Below are positions 5,122-35,882 of a stretch of 64,000 bases of DNA, piece after piece. The stretch spans positions 124,001-188,000 of the forward strand of contig NZ_NGUO01000004.1 of NCBI RefSeq assembly GCF_002206635.1, given 5' to 3'. The notes beneath the pieces are model-generated. The model was given only the letters and a program-made list of their open reading frames with translations, did not search any database and was not told the origin of the DNA. Positions within the stretch are counted from its first letter, which is position 1. Each line of letters begins with the position of its first letter. Origin of the DNA: Polynucleobacter aenigmaticus (GTDB lineage: Bacteria > Pseudomonadota > Gammaproteobacteria > Burkholderiales > Burkholderiaceae). The position numbers and the translations under genes were made by a program.

Positions 5122-5826
5122 TTGACATCACTGCGTTTGAACACAATAAAAAAAATTGGCATTCTGGGCGGGACTTTTGACCCCCCTCATCTTGGCCACC
5201 TCAAACTAGCAACTCACTTTGCAAAAGTATTGCATCTTGATGAACTGTTGCTCATCCCCAGTGGCGAACCCTGGCAAAAAGGGACTGGCCTCACTAATGC
5301 GGAGACGCGCCTTCAGCTGACTGAGGCCGCTGGTGTTGACCTAGCAAGAGCATTCCAATATCTAGGCATACCAACACAAATTGGCGTTGATCGTCTAGAG
5401 ATTGATCGAGCTGGGCCAAGCTATGCAATCGACACCGCCAAGGCCTTGAGAGAGCGTTTTGGACCCAATTCCAGCATGACTTGGCTCATGGGGGTTGACT
5501 CCCTTCTAAACCTGCCCACCTGGAACTCTTGGGATCAATTACTAAATTATGTGAATTTCGCAGTAGCAAGCAGGCCTCACTATGCCCTTTCTTTGGAAAT
5601 GAACCCTCAAATTGAGGTCTTACTGACACAACACCAATCTATTAATGCTGATGCCCTTGAAAAAAGCCCATTTGGCCGCATCTACCTAGATAACAGTCTT
5701 TCGATAGATCTTTCCTCAACCCACCTCCGAAATCAGCTAAAAAGCTCAGCCCGGAGCGAGATTGCATCCGAGCAAATCCCTGCTCACGCTTTAGAAATCA
5801 TTACAAATCTGGGTCTGTACAAATAA
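5122..5826 (+). CDS. nadD: Nicotinate-nucleotide adenylyltransferase
   Basis: NadD adenylates nicotinate mononucleotide to deamido-NAD. The nucleotidyltransferase motif GGTFDPPHLGHL carries the HxGH catalytic signature at about residues 16-27, and the C-terminal SSTHLRNQ corresponds to the SSTxxR phosphate-binding motif. The start is uncertain: TTG at 5122 or TTG at 5137, with no ATG before the Rossmann strand. Its stop is followed 55 bases later by rsfS; nadD-rsfS-rlmH is a widely conserved order, which supports the call. Confidence 0.93.
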   Translation: MTSLRLNTIKKIGILGGTFDPPHLGHLKLATHFAKVLHLDELLLIPSGEPWQKGTGLTNAETRLQLTEAAGVDLARAFQYLGIPTQIGVDRLEIDRAGPSYAIDTAKALRERFGPNSSMTWLMGVDSLLNLPTWNSWDQLLNYVNFAVASRPHYALSLEMNPQIEVLLTQHQSINADALEKSPFGRIYLDNSLSIDLSSTHLRNQLKSSARSEIASEQIPAHALEIITNLGLYK

Positions 5827-17957: not shown

Positions 17958-19374
17958 AGCCGCCGAGCAGAGCGCCGACAGCAGGTCTAGCAGGAGTAAT
18001 ACCCACTTTTTTCTCTTCGGAGATAGTGGCGCCTGAGGAAGACTGAGGTGCAGCACTAGGCTCATAAGGTTTATAGAAAAAAGGATCTGACATTTTTGCC
18101 GGTGCATCTGATCTCGATGAGCTTCTGCTTGACGCAGGACTAGGACTATAGCTAGGACTACCTTCGGGCAGAGGCTGAACATCCAACTTACGCTTCATCA
18201 ATCTTTCAATATCATCGAGCAAGCGTTTTTCACTAGCATCTACCAATGCAATCGCGTCACCTTTGCTGCCCGCGCGACCTGTACGACCAATACGGTGAAT
18301 AAAATCTTCTGCGTTGTATGGCAACTCATGATTAATCACGCAAGGCATCGATGGAATATCCAAGCCACGTGCAGCTACATCGGTAGCTACTAATGCCTCA
18401 ATAGCGCCAGACTTAAATGCATCCAAAGTTAAAGTGCGTTCGCCCTGACTCTTATCACCATGAATCGCTCCCGCTTTAATTCCGTCACGCTCTAGCGCTC
18501 TAGATAATTTTGCACAACCTAAACGGCTATTGGTAAAGATGATGCACTGACGAGATAAGCCTTGACGGGTACGCGCCTCAAGCACTTTTACAATTGCACG
18601 CTGCTTGTCCGCACTAGCAACCATATGCACGACTTGCTTGACGGTATCCGCTGCCGCATTTTGACGCGCTACCTCTACAGTCACTGGAGTACGCAAATAA
18701 CTCTGTGCTAATTTTTTAATCTCTGGTGAAAACGTTGCTGAGAACAATAATGTTTGGCGCTGTGCAGGAATCAAATCAATGATGCGTTGCAAGTCAGGCA
18801 AGAAACCCATATCGAGCATGCGATCGGCTTCATCCAAGACCAGAATCTCGACCTGTGAGAGATTGGCCACTTTTGAACCGATGTGATCTAGCAATCGTCC
18901 TGGGGTGGCAATCAAAATCTCCACGCCACTACGTAATGTGGCGACTTGCTCTTTCATATCCACGCCACCATAAACCACGGCAGCGCGTAAATCAGTATGT
19001 TTGGAATAGCTCGCTGCATTCTCAGCAACTTGAACCGCTAATTCACGTGTCGGCGTTAATACCAAAGCACGAATCGGATGACGCGCAGGCGATGCGCTGC
19101 TACTAGCATGACGTAGAATTTTTTGAATAATTGGCAGTACAAAAGCGGCCGTCTTACCCGTACCAGTTTGGGCTGCGCCCATCAGGTCGCTTCCAGCCAA
19201 TACATGGGGAATGGCTTGAGCTTGAATCGGAGTTGGGATGCTGTAACCCTGCTCGGATACCGCTTTTTGAATCTTGGGATCTAAGCCAAAATCAGCAAAG
19301 GTCATTGCTGCAGGAGGGGCGCTACTCTCAGTAGCGCCAATAGGGAGATCTATTTCAGGAACAGTATTTGTCAA
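17944..19374 (-). CDS. rhlE: DEAD-box ATP-dependent RNA helicase, RhlE-like
   Basis: A 476-residue DEAD-box helicase for RNA or ribosome remodelling. The Q motif FADFGLDPKIQKAVSEQGY precedes motif I AAQTGTGKTAA (about 68-78). The rest follows in order: PTRELAVQV, VLDEADRMLDMGF (DEAD box, about 181-193), FSATF, VATDVAARGLDIPS and HRIGRTGRAG. The C-terminal 90 residues are serine/proline-rich and end in a basic GGFKKK. RhlE is chosen over SrmB or DbpA from the tail and the TFADFGLD start. The stop overlaps gluQ, so the two transcripts are antisense at their ends. Confidence 0.9.
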   Translation of the reverse strand: MTNTVPEIDLPIGATESSAPPAAMTFADFGLDPKIQKAVSEQGYSIPTPIQAQAIPHVLAGSDLMGAAQTGTGKTAAFVLPIIQKILRHASSSASPARHPIRALVLTPTRELAVQVAENAASYSKHTDLRAAVVYGGVDMKEQVATLRSGVEILIATPGRLLDHIGSKVANLSQVEILVLDEADRMLDMGFLPDLQRIIDLIPAQRQTLLFSATFSPEIKKLAQSYLRTPVTVEVARQNAAADTVKQVVHMVASADKQRAIVKVLEARTRQGLSRQCIIFTNSRLGCAKLSRALERDGIKAGAIHGDKSQGERTLTLDAFKSGAIEALVATDVAARGLDIPSMPCVINHELPYNAEDFIHRIGRTGRAGSKGDAIALVDASEKRLLDDIERLMKRKLDVQPLPEGSPSYSPSPASSRSSSRSDAPAKMSDPFFYKPYEPSAAPQSSSGATISEEKKVGITPARPAVGALLGGFKKK

Positions 19375-29290: not shown

Positions 29291-29366
29291 GGGTCGGTAG
29301 CTCAGTCGGTAGAGCAGCGGACTTTTAATCCGTTGGTCGCGAGTTCGAATCTCGCCCGACCCACCA
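29291..29366 (+). tRNA. tRNA-Lys(UUU)
   Basis: A complete 76-base tRNA. The acceptor GGGTCGG pairs with CCGACCC, the D-arm contains AGCTCAGTCGGTAGAGC, the anticodon loop CTTTTAA gives anticodon TTT, the T-arm is GCGAGTTCGAATCTCGC, and CCA is encoded. Its last 45 bases are the integration target of the downstream elements: they recur exactly at 35838-35882, and the last 37 recur at 37760-37796. The present 3' half was therefore probably supplied by the element and keeps the gene functional. Confidence 0.98.
29322..29366 (+). repeat. attL of element A (tRNA-Lys 3' end)
   Basis: Forty-five bases from the anticodon loop to CCA, identical to 35838-35882. The bases flanking the repeat differ on both sides, so the exact edges are clear. 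Crossover is likely in the anticodon loop/stem region, as for other tRNA-targeting tyrosine integrases, but that is inference. Confidence 0.92.
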
Positions 29367-29485: not shown

Positions 29486-30880
29486 ATGAGTGATAGAAAA
29501 CACACAACGCACATAGTTATTGATAGAGAGCTAATAGTGTATTTGCGAGAGCGAAGCACTATATGGCAATGTAGATATTGCATAGACAGACAATGGCAAC
29601 GCACAAGCACAAAAGAATATGACTTAGCTAAAGCTAAGAAAGTGGCAAAGGAACTTTACTTAGAAGCACAGTGGCGAAAGAAAAATGACATCGCACCTAT
29701 TACACGCTACTTTAAGGATGTTGCAAAAAGCGTAGTTAAAAAACTAAAAGAAGAAAATGCAAGTGGAAATGGCAAAGCAATTTACAAAGACTACATTGCA
29801 ATAATCACAAATTACTTAATACCAGCGTTAGGCAAATACTATGTAGATAGCATTGACTACAGAGCATTAGAAGAATTAGAAAAGTATAGAAAAAATAAAC
29901 TTAAAGCAGAGCCAACACGAAGCACCCTACTTACGCACAATGCCGCACTTAGCAAAGTATTGGACGAAGCAATTTACAAAGGCTATCTGTTAGCAAGTAG
30001 AAAGCCAGAGTTAAAAGTAAAAGGTAAGAAAAGCGAAAGACGCACAGAATTTACAAGAGTAGAAGCTACGGCAATTAAGGCAAACTTTGACGAGTGGATA
30101 CAAAAAGGAAAAGCAGATAGTAAAGATGTAAGAGCGTTACTTAAAGATTATGTGATAACACTATTAGATACTGGTGCAAGACCAGGCAGAGAATTGCTTG
30201 AACTAACTTGGGCACAAGTTGAATTAGACAAAGAAGTAGTTAATAGAAAAACTGGTATGAGAGCAGAGTTAAGCGAAGACGACCAGCACGGAGAAGAGAT
30301 AACGCATAACTTTATTCGTAAAACTCTCATATTCAATATACAAAAAGGTAAAACTGGAAAACGCATAGCTGTAGGCAGACTACCAAGCGTGTATGCACTT
30401 AATGACATTGCACAAAGAAACCACAACAAGACTTTAGAGCAAATGATTAAGAGTGGTAGTAATGAGCTGGTATTTACTTACAGAGAGTATGTAAGCAAGA
30501 GACAAAATAATCCCAATCGCAAACCACAGTTAGTAAGCCCAACAAGTTTTAGTAAATTATTTGACGAATACTTAAAGCAACACAACTTACTAATATCGCC
30601 AATTACAAATAAGAAGCGTGTGCTGTATAGCCTACGTCACACCTATGCAACGCTTGCCTTAACGCACGATAAAGTAAGCATACATACGCTTGCTAAGCAA
30701 ATGGGGACAAGTGTTGCAATGATTGAGCAACACTACTCGCACTTAGATGCTGTAAAAGCAATGGCACAGTTGCGAGGCGAAGAAAGCAGACAGCTATTGG
30801 ACTTAGCGTTAGACGAGGACGACAAGAAACGCTATGCTTACATTGACAAAGAAAGTAAAAGCAAAACTAAGAAGATTTAA
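29486..30880 (+). CDS. int: Tyrosine-type site-specific integrase
   Basis: A 464-residue phage-type integrase. The N-terminal 170 residues look like an arm-binding plus SAM-like core-binding part (YKDYIAIITNYLIPALGKYYVDSI). The catalytic domain has the first arginine in DTGARPGRELLELTW (about 229-243), the LRHTYAT box (about 389-395) in which the usual H of HxxR-type boxes is replaced by a serine-leucine context, and the tyrosine in IEQHYSHL (about 414-421). It lies next to attL and points away from the tRNA. It is not of the P4 DUF4102 type. Codons are A+T rich. Its last 14 bases overlap the 55-residue gene on the other strand. Confidence 0.9.
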   Translation: MSDRKHTTHIVIDRELIVYLRERSTIWQCRYCIDRQWQRTSTKEYDLAKAKKVAKELYLEAQWRKKNDIAPITRYFKDVAKSVVKKLKEENASGNGKAIYKDYIAIITNYLIPALGKYYVDSIDYRALEELEKYRKNKLKAEPTRSTLLTHNAALSKVLDEAIYKGYLLASRKPELKVKGKKSERRTEFTRVEATAIKANFDEWIQKGKADSKDVRALLKDYVITLLDTGARPGRELLELTWAQVELDKEVVNRKTGMRAELSEDDQHGEEITHNFIRKTLIFNIQKGKTGKRIAVGRLPSVYALNDIAQRNHNKTLEQMIKSGSNELVFTYREYVSKRQNNPNRKPQLVSPTSFSKLFDEYLKQHNLLISPITNKKRVLYSLRHTYATLALTHDKVSIHTLAKQMGTSVAMIEQHYSHLDAVKAMAQLRGEESRQLLDLALDEDDKKRYAYIDKESKSKTKKI

Positions 30881-31246: not shown

Positions 31247-31696
31247 TTATTTGCCAAATGCAAGTCTTGTTGCTTCACTAACTTCTGCAATAGCTTCGTC
31301 TAACTCTCCATTTGCAACTGCAACCTTAAGTGCTTTAAGTGTAGAAATAAGCTCGTCACCACTTGCCAACTCAATTGCATTAGCTTTAGATTTTTTATTA
31401 AGCATTAGTGTTTTCGCACCATACTTAACAGCAAGATTGATTTTGTTATTTTCATTGCTTACCCAAAACCATTCTTTAACTCTCTTTGCAACTTCTGCTG
31501 TCATACGCTCACCAGTTGCCTTATTCACATAAGTTTTTAATCGCACTGGTGCGTATGTTTTACCTTCGCGTTGTGCTTCACATAACTCAAGCTGTTCGTG
31601 CAACTTGCTAATTAGTTTATTGCGACGGATAACTATTGGGGAAGCGTGTAATTGCTTTTTACTAACAACTAATTTCAGTCCATTTAATGTGCTCAT
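31247..31696 (-). CDS. DUF6641-like hypothetical protein
   Basis: A 149-residue protein. ATG 31696 is chosen because a strong AAGGAG site lies seven bases upstream; an in-frame start nine codons earlier has none. It begins MSTLNGLKLVVSKKQ and contains RRNKLISKLHEQLELCEAQREGK-type helices, then a beta segment with EWFWVSNENNKINLAVKYGAK. The pattern recalls DUF6641 proteins found in betaproteobacterial phages and islands; this is from memory and tentative. No catalytic motif is evident. It is divergent from the 174-residue gene, with an inverted repeat between them, and may be a regulator or single-strand-binding-like accessory. Confidence 0.7.
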   Translation of the reverse strand: MSTLNGLKLVVSKKQLHASPIVIRRNKLISKLHEQLELCEAQREGKTYAPVRLKTYVNKATGERMTAEVAKRVKEWFWVSNENNKINLAVKYGAKTLMLNKKSKANAIELASGDELISTLKALKVAVANGELDEAIAEVSEATRLAFGK

Positions 31697-31773
31697 AACA
31701 TTCTCCTTTTTTATTAAGCACATTTAATTTATTACCAGACTTTGCACATTCGCAACCTCAATTTGCCATACAT

Positions 31774-31804
31774 AACCAAATAATTCACATAAAAATATTT
31801 GGTT
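31774..31804. promoter_or_regulatory. Nine-base inverted repeat between divergent genes
   Basis: AACCAAATA (31774-31782) and TATTTGGTT (31796-31804) are perfect inverted copies 13 bases apart, centred in the 134-base divergent gap and ending 26 bases before the 174-residue gene. The placement suits an operator controlling one or both genes. The protein that would bind it is unknown. Confidence 0.5.
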
Positions 31805-31830
31805 TTATTAGGTATTGCATAAATAAATGT

Positions 31831-32466: not shown

Positions 32467-33279
32467 ATGAAAGAGCAAGCTGTTGAAACAATCTTCAAAG
32501 TTCCAAAAATGGATTGTCCAAGTGAAGAACATATGATAAGAATGACACTTGAACAATTACCAATCCATTCACTAAAATTTGATTTGCACAATAGAGTGCT
32601 TACTGTGCAACATACAACAGAACCAAACTTGATTTTAGAAAAGCTAACACCACTTGGTTATGGGGCACAAATTCAATCTAATATATTTTTAGAAATAGAC
32701 AATTTAGAAACAGATGGTGATAAAGAACACAATGCAATAGAGCGAAACACATTGCTTTGGTTGCTTGCATTAAACGGAGCAATGTTTTTTATAGAGATTA
32801 TTACTGGTTGGATAGCAAATTCAGCTGGACTATTGGCTGATGCACTTGATATGTTTGCAGATGCAACAGTTTATGTAATTGCTTTATACGCTGTAGGTAA
32901 GACGGCACAATACAAACTCAAAGCCGCAAAAATATCTGGCGTTGCAATGCTTTTATTATCGTTTGGAGCTATATGGCGTGTTGGATATCAAATACATACA
33001 GACGCAGAACCTGAAGCAAACACAATGGTATGGATTTCCGTATTAGCCTTAATTGCAAATGTCACTTGCTTATACTTAATTTCAAAGCGTAAGAATGATG
33101 GTGTGCATATGAAGGCAAGCTATATATTTTCTGCAAATGATGTCATAGCAAACATTGGTGTAATTATTGCTGGTGTTTTAGTGGCTTGGTTTGCAAGCCC
33201 AATACCTGATTGGCTTATTGGTATTGCTATTGGATTATTAGTTTTAAGTGGTGCAATACGCATACTTAAGCTCAAGTAA
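32467..33279 (+). CDS. HMA-domain/CDF fusion heavy-metal transporter
   Basis: A 270-residue inner-membrane protein. Residues 1-70 form a heavy-metal-associated-like domain with KMDCPSEEHMIRM, having one cysteine where classical HMA has CxxC. Residues about 95-270 are a cation diffusion facilitator with six hydrophobic helices. Helix 2 carries GLLADALDMFADA with the DxxxD metal pair. In helix 5 (IFSANDVIANIG) the position of the usual histidine of HxxxD is a phenylalanine or serine, so the metal site is altered. The N-terminal HMA part suggests metal delivery within one chain. GGAG lies seven bases before ATG. It is cargo of element A; the metal is unknown. Confidence 0.85.
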   Translation: MKEQAVETIFKVPKMDCPSEEHMIRMTLEQLPIHSLKFDLHNRVLTVQHTTEPNLILEKLTPLGYGAQIQSNIFLEIDNLETDGDKEHNAIERNTLLWLLALNGAMFFIEIITGWIANSAGLLADALDMFADATVYVIALYAVGKTAQYKLKAAKISGVAMLLLSFGAIWRVGYQIHTDAEPEANTMVWISVLALIANVTCLYLISKRKNDGVHMKASYIFSANDVIANIGVIIAGVLVAWFASPIPDWLIGIAIGLLVLSGAIRILKLK

Positions 33280-33606
33280 GTAGTAGCACATCAAATCCAC
33301 GCTACAAACGCTTAAAACATCACAGCGAATAGCAATTAAAGTAGAGACACGCTTAAACAGCGTATAGACGCTATACGCAAGTCTGCGTAATTTCGTAGTC
33401 AATTCACAACAAATCCAATAAATACAACAATGTAATGATTTATACAAATCCTTACATTACACATTAAAAACAGTGGTTCTCGTCTGTATCGCATTGATTA
33501 TTGGAAGGATTTTAATTTGACGAACTTTTTTCAAAACGAGGTAGGAAAAAACAATAAAAGAAAACAACATATAGCTATTGCAAGATTATATTTAGGGAAG
33601 AAAGCA
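33280..33606. other. Non-coding gap with two inverted repeats
   Basis: This 327-base gap before the short recombinase gene holds no convincing gene. It contains a perfect inverted repeat GCGTATAG-ACG-CTATACGC (33360-33378) and a second pair TGTAATG/CATTACA (33431-33437 and 33455-33461). Neither has a T-tract, so they are more likely protein-binding or recombination sites than terminators. An in-frame upstream extension of the recombinase (from 33517, TTG) exists but lacks support. Confidence 0.5.
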
Positions 33607-34182
33607 ATGGCTAAGCAAGCAAAAACACTTACACAAGCAGAAATACGCAGAGTTTTAGATTACATAGCTACACGCAAGCACAGCACACGCAATCGTGCTT
33701 TAGTAATGACGACATTTTTAAGTGGTGTGCGTGTTGGAGAGTTGGCAAGTTTGCAATATAAGGATGTTGTTGATTTAGAAGGCAACATACGCAACGAAAT
33801 TAGATTGAGTGCTGAGCAAACAAAAGGAAACGAAGCAAGAGTTGTATTTGTGAGCGAGAAACTTCGCAAAGAATTAGAGCAATATGCAAAATTCTATCAA
33901 CCCAAAAACATAAACTGTAAGTTCTTTTACAGTCAAAAAGCAGACAGTGATGGATTTACAGCAAATACACTAACGCAATTCTTTCACTACTTGTATAAAA
34001 AGAGTGGTGTTTATGGTGCAAGCTCGCATAGTGGCAGACGCACATTTATTACGAATTTGGCAAACAAAGGAATTAGCGTGAGAGTGTTAGCAAGTTTAGC
34101 TGGACACAAAAATATAAGCACTACGCAATGCTACATAGATGTAAATGACGAAATGAAGCGTAAAGCTGTAGAGTTGGTTTAA
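33607..34182 (+). CDS. Short tyrosine recombinase (catalytic-domain only)
   Basis: A 191-residue recombinase that consists almost only of the XerC/D-type catalytic domain. It has the first arginine in SGVRVGELASL (about 50-60), a lysine-bearing beta hairpin TKGNEARVVFV, SHSGRRTF for the HxxR box (about 147-154), and GHKNISTTQCYID with the tyrosine (about 170-182). The usual N-terminal core-binding domain is missing, so it may act with a partner or in regulation. ATG 33607 is chosen for its AGGGAAG site eight bases upstream. The stop is immediately followed by a 277-base imperfect inverted repeat, which may be its substrate. Confidence 0.82.
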   Translation: MAKQAKTLTQAEIRRVLDYIATRKHSTRNRALVMTTFLSGVRVGELASLQYKDVVDLEGNIRNEIRLSAEQTKGNEARVVFVSEKLRKELEQYAKFYQPKNINCKFFYSQKADSDGFTANTLTQFFHYLYKKSGVYGASSHSGRRTFITNLANKGISVRVLASLAGHKNISTTQCYIDVNDEMKRKAVELV

Positions 34183-34183
34183 C

Positions 34184-34460
34184 TTGGTATGGTTGGTATT
34201 GGTTTAGCAAGAAAAGTGTGCGTTTAACTATTAGGTGTTGTGCAAGCTGTATGGTTTAGCACAGCAAAACATATAGGAGTAATACGCACGATTTTTTTAC
34301 ATAATAATGACCAAACCAACCAAGCACTATCTGTATAGCTTGCAAGGCAATGGTGGTATTTGTTATGTAGAAAAACCATACTTTTTACTCCTATGTGTTT
34401 TCAGCACCATATACAGTAATACGCATAGTTTTCTTGCTAAACCAATACCAACCTTACCAA
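34184..34460. repeat. Long imperfect inverted repeat (277 bases)
   Basis: The outer arms 34184-34215 and 34429-34460 are inverted copies with 31 of 32 bases matching. Moving inward the symmetry continues with gaps: ATAGGAGTAA near 34274 against TACTCCTAT near 34387, and TTTTTTTACATAA near 34292 against TTATGTAGAAAAA near 34364. The centre holds a CAAG...CTTG hairpin (34321-34342). An 11-base direct repeat AGTAATACGCA occurs at 34278 and 34415. It fills the gap between the short recombinase and the convergent unknown gene, whose last codons overlap the right arm. Transcribed or single-stranded, it would fold into one long hairpin. Confidence 0.75.
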
Positions 34461-35131
34461 CTCTTCTTCTTTCTCAACTCTGCCAACTTACTCTTTAGCA
34501 AAGCTGTTTGTTCTTCTGTAAGCTGTTTAGCATATCCATTTGCTTCATACCAATCATCAATTTCTTTATCAACTAATACCAAAGCCTTTTTAAGCACTTC
34601 CAAACGCACTTCCTTAATTGTTTTCCAATTAAAGCGTTCTTTAATATCAATCAACTTATCTTCACTTCTACTTGTAATTAAGAATGGCAATAAATCGTAT
34701 TGCAATCCTAACTCACCACTTTTAATTTTCCTATCCAACCACACAGCTAAATCAGCTCGCTTCTTCAGTGCTAATAACAAATAATCTTGTGCATTCTTAA
34801 TCGCCAACTTAGCCTTATTAGCCAAGTCTGCTTTCTTCGCTTGTCTATCTACTAATACATTGCTAATTACCTTAGCACTAATAGCATAACCATCGTATCT
34901 ACCAAAAAGCATTAGTGCTTGCTTATGCAACTTTTCGTATTGATTTAATACAGCTGGCTTTTTAACCTTACGCAATGCTTGTTGCTGTTTCCAGTTATTT
35001 TCAATTTCAGCTTGTAGCTCTTTTGTAAGCAAAGCATTTATATCTCGCTTGCTTACTTCATCGCCAGCAACTACCCTATCTATAAGCCTTGCAAGACTTT
35101 GCTTCTTAGCTTCTGGTGTTAAGCGTGGCAC
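34454..35131 (-). CDS. Hypothetical lysine-rich helical protein
   Basis: A 225-residue soluble protein, first line MPRLTPEAKKQSLARLIDRV. It appears mostly helical with high Lys, Leu and Ala content (KKADLANKAKLAIKNAQDY; LTEEQTALLKSKLAELRKKK). There is no signal peptide, membrane segment or known catalytic motif. It is the second gene of a two-gene operon, starting six bases after the stop of the 183-residue gene. Its final codons run into the right arm of the 277-base inverted repeat. Similar N-termini recur in Burkholderiales islands as far as I recall, without a known function. A nucleic-acid-binding role is a guess from charge only. Confidence 0.75.
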   Translation of the reverse strand: MPRLTPEAKKQSLARLIDRVVAGDEVSKRDINALLTKELQAEIENNWKQQQALRKVKKPAVLNQYEKLHKQALMLFGRYDGYAISAKVISNVLVDRQAKKADLANKAKLAIKNAQDYLLLALKKRADLAVWLDRKIKSGELGLQYDLLPFLITSRSEDKLIDIKERFNWKTIKEVRLEVLKKALVLVDKEIDDWYEANGYAKQLTEEQTALLKSKLAELRKKKSW

Positions 35132-35137
35132 TTATTA

Positions 35138-35689
35138 TCAATCCCAACCTTTAGTAAGTATTTTTCGTAATTTTTCCAACTCTTTTTCTTTAAGCAACTG
35201 AAAATATTTTGCATTTTTTTCGTCTGCCTTGTGCATCGCTTCCAATTTCTTTATTACAGTTGTTGTTGGATTTATTTCATCTACAAAATTTTCATATAAA
35301 ACCACATTATCTAAATGCCTAACCATTACTTGAAGCATTTGACATCTTCTTGCTAAATCCTCGCATTCCTTAATATCATCTCTATCAATTGTTGTATATG
35401 CTTCTATGCAATGTCCATACATTAGTCCCAACATACTTGAATTTGCATCATCACTAAATGCATATAAAGTAGCCATATACTGAGAATTTGTTTTCAATGC
35501 CTCATCAGCTGTTCTTTTCATATCCCATACAAAAGTGTCATCCTTTTCAATTTGCGTCCAAGCTGGATTTTTCTTATTTGGATTAAGCACTACTACTTTT
35601 TTTATATTCAACTTCTGCCTCATATCTTCTGCAAGTGGCAATGGTTTTTTAGGTGAAGAAGAAATTAAGGCAATTTTTACTTTTGACAT
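35138..35689 (-). CDS. Hypothetical protein, 183 residues
   Basis: ATG 35689 is chosen because an AAGGA site lies about ten bases upstream; the open frame extends 35 codons further without one. The protein starts MSKVKIALISSSPKKPLPLA, a beta strand with a serine-rich loop like the start of a Rossmann or nucleotide-hydrolase-type fold. A central region follows with DDANSSMLGLMYGHCIEAY, and the end is a charged coiled helix (KADEKNAKYFQLLKEKELEK). No family is recognised. It is first in an operon with the 225-residue gene, promoter-proximal to attR. It may be cargo such as a defence or regulatory gene, but nothing shows this directly. Confidence 0.72.
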   Translation of the reverse strand: MSKVKIALISSSPKKPLPLAEDMRQKLNIKKVVVLNPNKKNPAWTQIEKDDTFVWDMKRTADEALKTNSQYMATLYAFSDDANSSMLGLMYGHCIEAYTTIDRDDIKECEDLARRCQMLQVMVRHLDNVVLYENFVDEINPTTTVIKKLEAMHKADEKNAKYFQLLKEKELEKLRKILTKGWD

Positions 35690-35837: not shown

Positions 35838-35882
35838 CTTTTAATCCGTTGGTCGCGAGTTCGAATCTCGCCCGACCCACCA
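35838..35882 (+). repeat. Second copy of the tRNA-Lys 3' end (attR of A, attL of B)
   Basis: This copy is identical over 45 bases to 29322-29366, from the anticodon loop to CCA. The upstream half of a tRNA is absent, so it is not a tRNA gene. It marks the junction of elements A and B. Confidence 0.92.

Follow-up and report, generated by a model that had tools for sequence, protein, structure and literature searches.

A long palindrome between convergent island genes

The subject of this analysis is a palindrome in a 64,000-nucleotide stretch of Polynucleobacter aenigmaticus DNA (NZ_NGUO01000004.1, positions 124,001 to 188,000; hereafter the window), together with the two genes converging on it, which encode the tyrosine recombinase Rec191 and p225, a protein of 225 amino acids (aa). 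All three belong to a 6.5 kb island flanked on both sides by identical 45-bp copies of the 3' part of tRNA-Lys. The island contains, in this order, Int464, DUF6641 (minus strand), a 174-aa open reading frame (ORF), a cation-efflux protein, Rec191, the palindrome, p225 (minus strand), and a 183-aa ORF (minus strand) (Table 1).

Table 1. Features of the island and of its palindrome, in window coordinates
Feature	Position	Strand	Remarks
45-bp direct repeat, left	29322..29366	+	3' part of tRNA-Lys
Island integrase Int464	29486..30880	+	PF13102, PHROG integrase
DUF6641 protein	31247..31723	-	PF20346, E 2.4e-8; recurrent Rec191 neighbour (neighbourhoods)
Cation efflux cargo gene	32467-33279		N-terminal heavy-metal-associated domain just under cut-off
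Rec191	33607..34182	+	Catalytic-domain-only tyrosine recombinase; PF00589, E 3.8e-28; XerA/XerD-like
Imperfect palindrome, 277 bases	34184..34460	none	Between convergent genes
GG-run tract (TTGG/ATGG repeats)	34184..34202	+	After Rec stop, within outer left arm
Box 1, outer left (AAACGCACACTTTTC)	34211..34225	-	Rank 2 of 127,972, class B core matrix
Box 2, inner left (ATACGCACGATTTTT)	34282..34296	+	Rank 5 of 127,972; overlaps AGTAATACGCA at 34278
Box 3, inner right (AAAAGTATGGTTTTT)	34371..34385	-	Rank 1 of 127,972
Box 4, outer right (ATACGCATAGTTTTC)	34419..34433	+	Rank 9 of 127,972; overlaps AGTAATACGCA at 34415
p225	34454..35131	-	Predicted all-helical, no assigned family; 3' end overlaps palindrome
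183-aa ORF upstream of p225	35138..35689	-	Cargo; ORF list and family searches
45-bp direct repeat, right	35838..35882	+	Identical copy, far island end

The initial annotation, made from the sequence alone, placed the palindrome at 34184-34460 and credited its outer 32-base arms with 31 matches. Sequence inspection bore out both the coordinates and the arms (34184-34215 / 34429-34460), which can be extended to 46 nt at 89% match, while the inner arms (34266-34313 / 34354-34401) match at 79%. Strand folding confirmed that the palindrome is real, with -69 kcal/mol for DNA (z -11.4) and -125.3 kcal/mol for RNA (z -13.1), and 0 of 200 shuffles were as good in either case. With a score of 70, it is the top foldback of the window, where the next one outside the palindrome scores 24, and among the loci compared (993,684 bases, overlapping copies included; individual loci and regions are given by their L numbers) only L034 has a higher one (71). 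The best foldback in 320 kb of the same genome (16 stretches) scores 39. The palindrome is present as a single copy in its own genome, and no second copy was found in 186 genomes of the genus, where matches extended over 19-36 nt only; a miniature inverted-repeat transposable element or dispersed repeat was rejected on this basis.

The adjacency to Rec191 holds as first described, except that the gap to the recombinase stop codon (34180-34182) is one base and not two. On the other side, the right arm overlaps the stop codon of p225 (34454-34456). The internal repeat AGTAATACGCA indeed occurs in direct copies, which are exact at 34278 and 34415 (0.01 expected in the window), and the copy reported as inverted (34219-34229) carries two mismatches, a level at which the window holds 23 matches compared to 15.6 expected.

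Palindrome type in relation to Rec191 and p225

The description of Rec191 as a catalytic-domain-only recombinase is well founded, as PF00589 covers residues 7-182 of 191 with 98.8 bits vs. a cut-off of 27.1. The protein has 191 aa when read from the ATG at 33607 and 221 aa from an upstream TTG at 33517. The alignment with XerA/XerD spans the active-site region, judged by the usual identity of the catalytic residues. Relatives (E <= 1e-10) are encoded in 109 of the 186 genus genomes, and 63 loci were found in other genera, mostly Alpha- and Betaproteobacteria to judge from their records. Rec matches of at least 150 residues with 1300 nt downstream, counting identical flanks once, yielded 81 loci, which were searched for foldbacks with a score of at least 24 within 450 nt. 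Such a foldback is missing at 69 of these 81 distinct loci, and a recombinase 97% identical to Rec191 adjoins a different palindrome; both findings speak against the initial proposal of a folded-strand recombination site of Rec191. The 12 loci with a foldback comprise 9 of the 13 that have a p225-type gene vs. 3 of the 68 that do not (Fisher p 5e-7, which is only a guide because the loci are related). A GG-run tract after Rec was seen at 11 of the 13 loci with p225 and at 0 of the 68 without, using a criterion set post hoc, and the spacing of its runs might permit a two-layer G-quadruplex.

Homologues of p225 are present in 23 of the 186 genus genomes, including its own, and relatives of the window protein were not found in plasmids or viral contigs. 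At the thresholds used, p225 has no Pfam, NCBIfam, PADLOC, or PHROG family and only weak Pfam matches, and the comparison with sequences of solved structures gave nothing significant. Its structural model (mean pLDDT 76.7) is predicted to be all-helical; the badly framed alignment row of L053 was left out of the fold.

Across the genus, covariance models identified two more palindrome types. Class B (model R1) was detected in 17 of the 186 genomes and class A (model R2) in seven, five of them at E <= 1e-23 and two at 0.006-0.008; the genome of the window was matched by neither model in these genus searches, which used stricter filters. A palindrome lies at the 3' end or no more than ~110 nt from it for 17 of the 24 p225-type matches in the genus (five class A, 11 class B, and the window), a count assembled by hand across several searches. 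Of the other seven, five lack such a palindrome and two are located at a contig edge.

In a comparison of 16 islands, the palindrome type tracks p225. Identities of p225 are at least 60% within class A and at least 42% within class B, and at most 36% between types, whereas Rec reaches 96% between A and B and 97% between A and C, and DUF6641 and Int each reach 97% between A and B. The type thus follows neither Rec nor DUF6641 (16 islands), and it does not follow Int either where an Int404-type gene allows the comparison (13 islands; the window, L171, and L177 were left out). Rec was compared at full length (187-191 aa), and the p225 stretches were shortened (143-150 aa) for the class B rows L171, L173, L174, L175, and L178.

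Pairs of islands illustrate the same pattern. L178 (class B) and L187 (class A) are 92.5% identical up to the Int stop and 90.5% identical from the Rec side, and their Int, Rec, and DUF6641 segments are 90-95% identical, whereas p225 plus palindrome have no match. The window and L185 have in common Rec (97%), the DNA at ~33277-34204 (Rec with its flanks), and 64 nt at the DUF6641 start. Hence, p225 and the palindrome differ between islands as one block. Adjacency alone could explain such a block, yet Rec, which lies nearly as close to the palindrome, does not follow it.

Sister palindromes and a shared 15-bp box

Each island holds a single class A copy in the five class A regions that were searched, and regions with class B hold between one and three high-scoring copies. 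Class B sites are found at the 3' end of p225-type genes and also at cargo edges. In 11 of 18 regions (hand count) a copy is located 5' of the DUF6641 coding match at a distance of 12-74 nt, and in four regions a copy lies ~340-380 nt from tRNA-Phe. The constant-segment match with L175 stops at a class B copy in L174, L172, and L182, at a left-end place where L175 itself has no model match, and the match between L174 and L175 also stops at the copy at p225. Ordinary homologous recombination would give the same pattern of segment ends.

Compensating changes between the arms were sought in 28 class B copies out of 29 high-scoring places (alignment A9; the copy in L184 is cut by the contig end, and four weaker places with 21-26 bits were left out), many of which are closely related and therefore not independent. 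None were detected above shuffles: 84.5% of the cells are paired vs. 85.7% in shuffles, and five pairs have both sides changed vs. 5.0. The structure does beat slid versions of itself (84.5% vs. at most 64.6%), as expected of any inverted repeat. What the arms keep are letters, not pairs, with near-fixed GGTTTA and AAAMGCAGG-TTTTT in a layout of A-tract, GC-rich core, and T-tract. The spacers of three bases are variable, with only 27% of their cells paired. Furthermore, boxes without an inverted partner (up to two mismatches) occur at five places in L168, L170, and L173, upstream of Rec in all three and near tRNA genes in L170 and L173; R1 matches two of them weakly (21.6 and 23.4 bits). Kept letters, variable spacers, and partnerless boxes together are the pattern of a site that is read as sequence in duplex DNA. 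This covariation result concerns class B, as the window palindrome has no homologue and the closest full-length p225 is 32% identical. For class B, an attC-like folded site was rejected on this result.

These data bear on two alternatives. The palindrome could be a recombination site of Rec191, folded or double-stranded, given that it adjoins a catalytic-domain recombinase aligned with XerA/XerD through the active-site region, that its boxes are inverted, and that class B pairs lie at the borders of constant and variable island segments. We nevertheless regard this as improbable, because the palindrome type does not follow Rec, most Rec loci have no foldback of score 24 or more within 450 nt, class B lacks covariation, and the box spacing in class B is variable, unlike that of known core sites. 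Recombinase core sites have a fixed spacer of 6-8 bp. The internal repeats that had been interpreted as such core sites appear to be genuine binding-site boxes, while a folded-strand recombination site of Rec191 is not borne out: both outcomes named in the initial annotation as refuting it, recombinase homologues lacking the repeat and arms that differ without compensating changes, are seen among relatives. An RNA element, i.e. a hairpin acting in the 3' untranslated region of Rec or p225, or a small RNA, would agree with the strong RNA fold, and is very unlikely in view of the missing covariation in class B, the partnerless boxes, and the lack of any match to Rfam within the palindrome (E <= 1), on which a known RNA family was also rejected.

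A terminator or insulator, in which a long stem halts transcription from both convergent genes, is a more serious alternative, although still rather unlikely. It would account for the position between two convergent 3' ends and for the A-tract, GC-rich core, and T-tract of the class B boxes, and the distant p225-type genes L132 and L135 are followed by GC-rich stems and T runs like those of ordinary terminators. A scan restricted to loops of 3-8 found no terminator-like site in 34184-34460, and an intrinsic terminator by consensus was rejected on this result. Class B pairs also occur immediately before the DUF6641 coding region, and in L172, L174, and L182 such pairs adjoin a separate terminator-like stem. 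Boxes exist without an inverted partner, and L054 and L136 have no palindrome at all.

The window palindrome itself contains four copies of a box with a AAAMGCAGGKTTTTT-like core, arranged as inverted pairs, which match the class B box family. They were scored with a 15-bp matrix trained solely on class B arms from other genomes and ranked over 127,972 window positions (Table 1), with column permutation and a reverse matrix as controls for the choice of core. None of 300 column-permuted matrices performed as well, the best worst-rank among them being 52, and matrix rank 4 overlaps box 3 on the opposite strand. One of 637 control segments equalled the score sum of the palindrome, and this is presumably a segment lying on the palindrome. 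The reverse matrix, derived from the four boxes of the window, gives the leading places to known class B boxes in L167 (top 4), L168 (top 3), L171 (top 4), and L174 (top 2). That the palindrome is a functionless by-product of an inverted duplication by template switching would fit its single copy and the far better preservation of the outer arms (31/32) than of the inner ones (79%). We give this idea hardly any credence, as palindromes are in the same place at 16 other p225-type matches (hand count) and the four boxes outscore nearly all of the window.

Several further observations were made on the islands. Upstream of DUF6641 in the window, a small inverted repeat (AACCAAAT...ATTTGGTT, 31777-31806) resembles a motif in sister islands. 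The sister island L174, which has Int404, repeats the 5' half of tRNA-Phe (5168-5222 and 18477-18531), compared to the 3' part of tRNA-Lys in the window. L182:9052-14937, flanked by tRNA-Phe half repeats, is island-like: it has the conserved left end and a single class B palindrome, and no match to Int, Rec191, p225, or DUF6641; it is possibly a non-autonomous island. Approximately 130 nt upstream of Rec are almost invariant in four class B islands (L167:7000-7880, alignment A8), contain only short ORFs (35-57 aa), and in L167 do not match Rfam. The sole exact match to the class B box pattern among the viral contigs is at the edge of a 12-kb contig (L213:84-107).

Proposed function and comparison with known systems

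With moderate confidence, we propose that the palindrome is a compound cis-site on duplex DNA, made up of binding boxes that belong to p225, and that it is probably bound by the p225 product. Four copies of the 15-bp T-tailed box would form two nested inverted pairs on double-stranded DNA, and the palindrome would constitute one exchangeable island block with the p225-type gene. Sister islands carry the same box as the single inverted pair of class B, placed at the 3' ends of p225-type genes, upstream of DUF6641, and along cargo borders. The likeliest mode of action is dimer binding, by which the p225 product would mark or regulate island segments. An operator, a border mark, and an insulator are each possible functions; a regulatory role is favoured by the class B sites that precede DUF6641, a border role by those at cargo edges.

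A number of observations weigh against this proposal. The 15-bp core and its register were picked by eye after the repeats had been seen and before scoring, and matrix rank 3 falls in the Rec191 reading frame (33643). The reverse matrix does not put a class B box first in L175, and its six best matches in L185 and L186, both class A regions, all fall outside the palindrome; class A holds the box weakly, with best ranks of 5, 14, 15, 44, and 52 in five regions. The window boxes are not convincingly recovered by a 26-column arm matrix (best rank 12, score -2.8 vs. 15.7 for the lowest training arm), by R1 (12.6 bits, E 0.23), or by R2 (14.3 bits, E 0.97). At the Rec loci, the association with foldbacks is incomplete: four of the 13 with p225 (L178, L187, L188, and L054) score under 24, although covariance models do find the sites of L178, L187, and L188 that the foldback score misses, and three of the 68 without p225 reach 24. 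In L054 and L136, where Rec and p225-type genes converge at distances of 27 and 9 nt, respectively, a palindrome is absent. L178 and L187 also lack a match in a second cargo segment (L178 10018-10637); exchange is thus not peculiar to the p225-palindrome block, and because p225 and the palindrome are adjacent, their joint exchange could be plain linkage. Finally, the p225 model has no match at E <= 0.001 in two fold searches, and among five p225-type proteins, including one fragment, the pI exceeds 9 in three, is 7.8 in another, and is 5.6 in the acidic L185 homologue. Given these mixed values and the lack of a known fold, DNA binding by p225 is something we infer.

In a bolder version, which we consider improbable, p225-type proteins and their boxes would form an undescribed addressing system of islands, in which the boxes flag segment borders and p225, with Rec191 and/or Int, uses them to exchange or mobilise cargo between islands, in the manner of an integron that works on double-stranded DNA. 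Should the boxes indeed mark segments open to exchange, this would help to explain how small tRNA-bound islands of freshwater bacteria swap their cargo. For the proposed p225 site, an eye-catching hairpin becomes a testable pairing of an unnamed protein and a DNA box of islands in many Polynucleobacter genomes. Moreover, the case cautions against taking every strong foldback next to a recombinase for a folded-strand recombination site.

The element did not appear among the papers listed on Polynucleobacter islands and palindromes, on tyrosine-recombinase islands, and on folded-site recombination, PMC5385486 and PMC4792948 being the sources consulted, in a search that did not extend to most subscription journals. 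The same literature search found no paper on DUF6641. Existing surveys of tyrosine recombinases might classify Rec191.

Among known systems, the intrinsic bidirectional terminator is likewise an inverted repeat between convergent genes, from which the palindrome differs in its length of 277 nt and in the negative terminator scan described above. The FimB/FimE invertases are, like Rec191, recombinases of ~200 aa (model lengths 200 and 198) that lack an N-terminal domain, but Rec191 stays under the family cut-offs (40.0 of 221 and 28.7 of 222 bits). In the fim arrangement the invertible site surrounds a promoter, whereas the palindrome lies between convergent gene ends. GInt islands (ginABCD) likewise combine tyrosine recombinases with exchangeable cargo in a genomic island; they differ from the island studied here, in which a single full integrase occurs alongside a separate Rec191, DUF6641, and p225. 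The integron attC/IntI system shares with the locus a palindromic site beside a tyrosine recombinase gene and, as in the sister islands, repeated sites at cargo borders. Rec191 scores under the cut-offs of the integron integrase families (44 of 265 and 20.9 of 435 bits). The terminal boxes of attC have the consensus RYYYAAC / GTTRRRY, to which the palindrome ends TTGGTAT / TTACCAA do not fit by eye; GTTTAAC, just outside the palindrome (34177-34183), fits RYYYAAC, and no GTTRRRY partner was seen by eye at the right end (34440-34500). In attC sites it is the structure that is conserved rather than the sequence, and the folded single strand is what is used (PMC4792948), whereas class B keeps its sequence without covariation.
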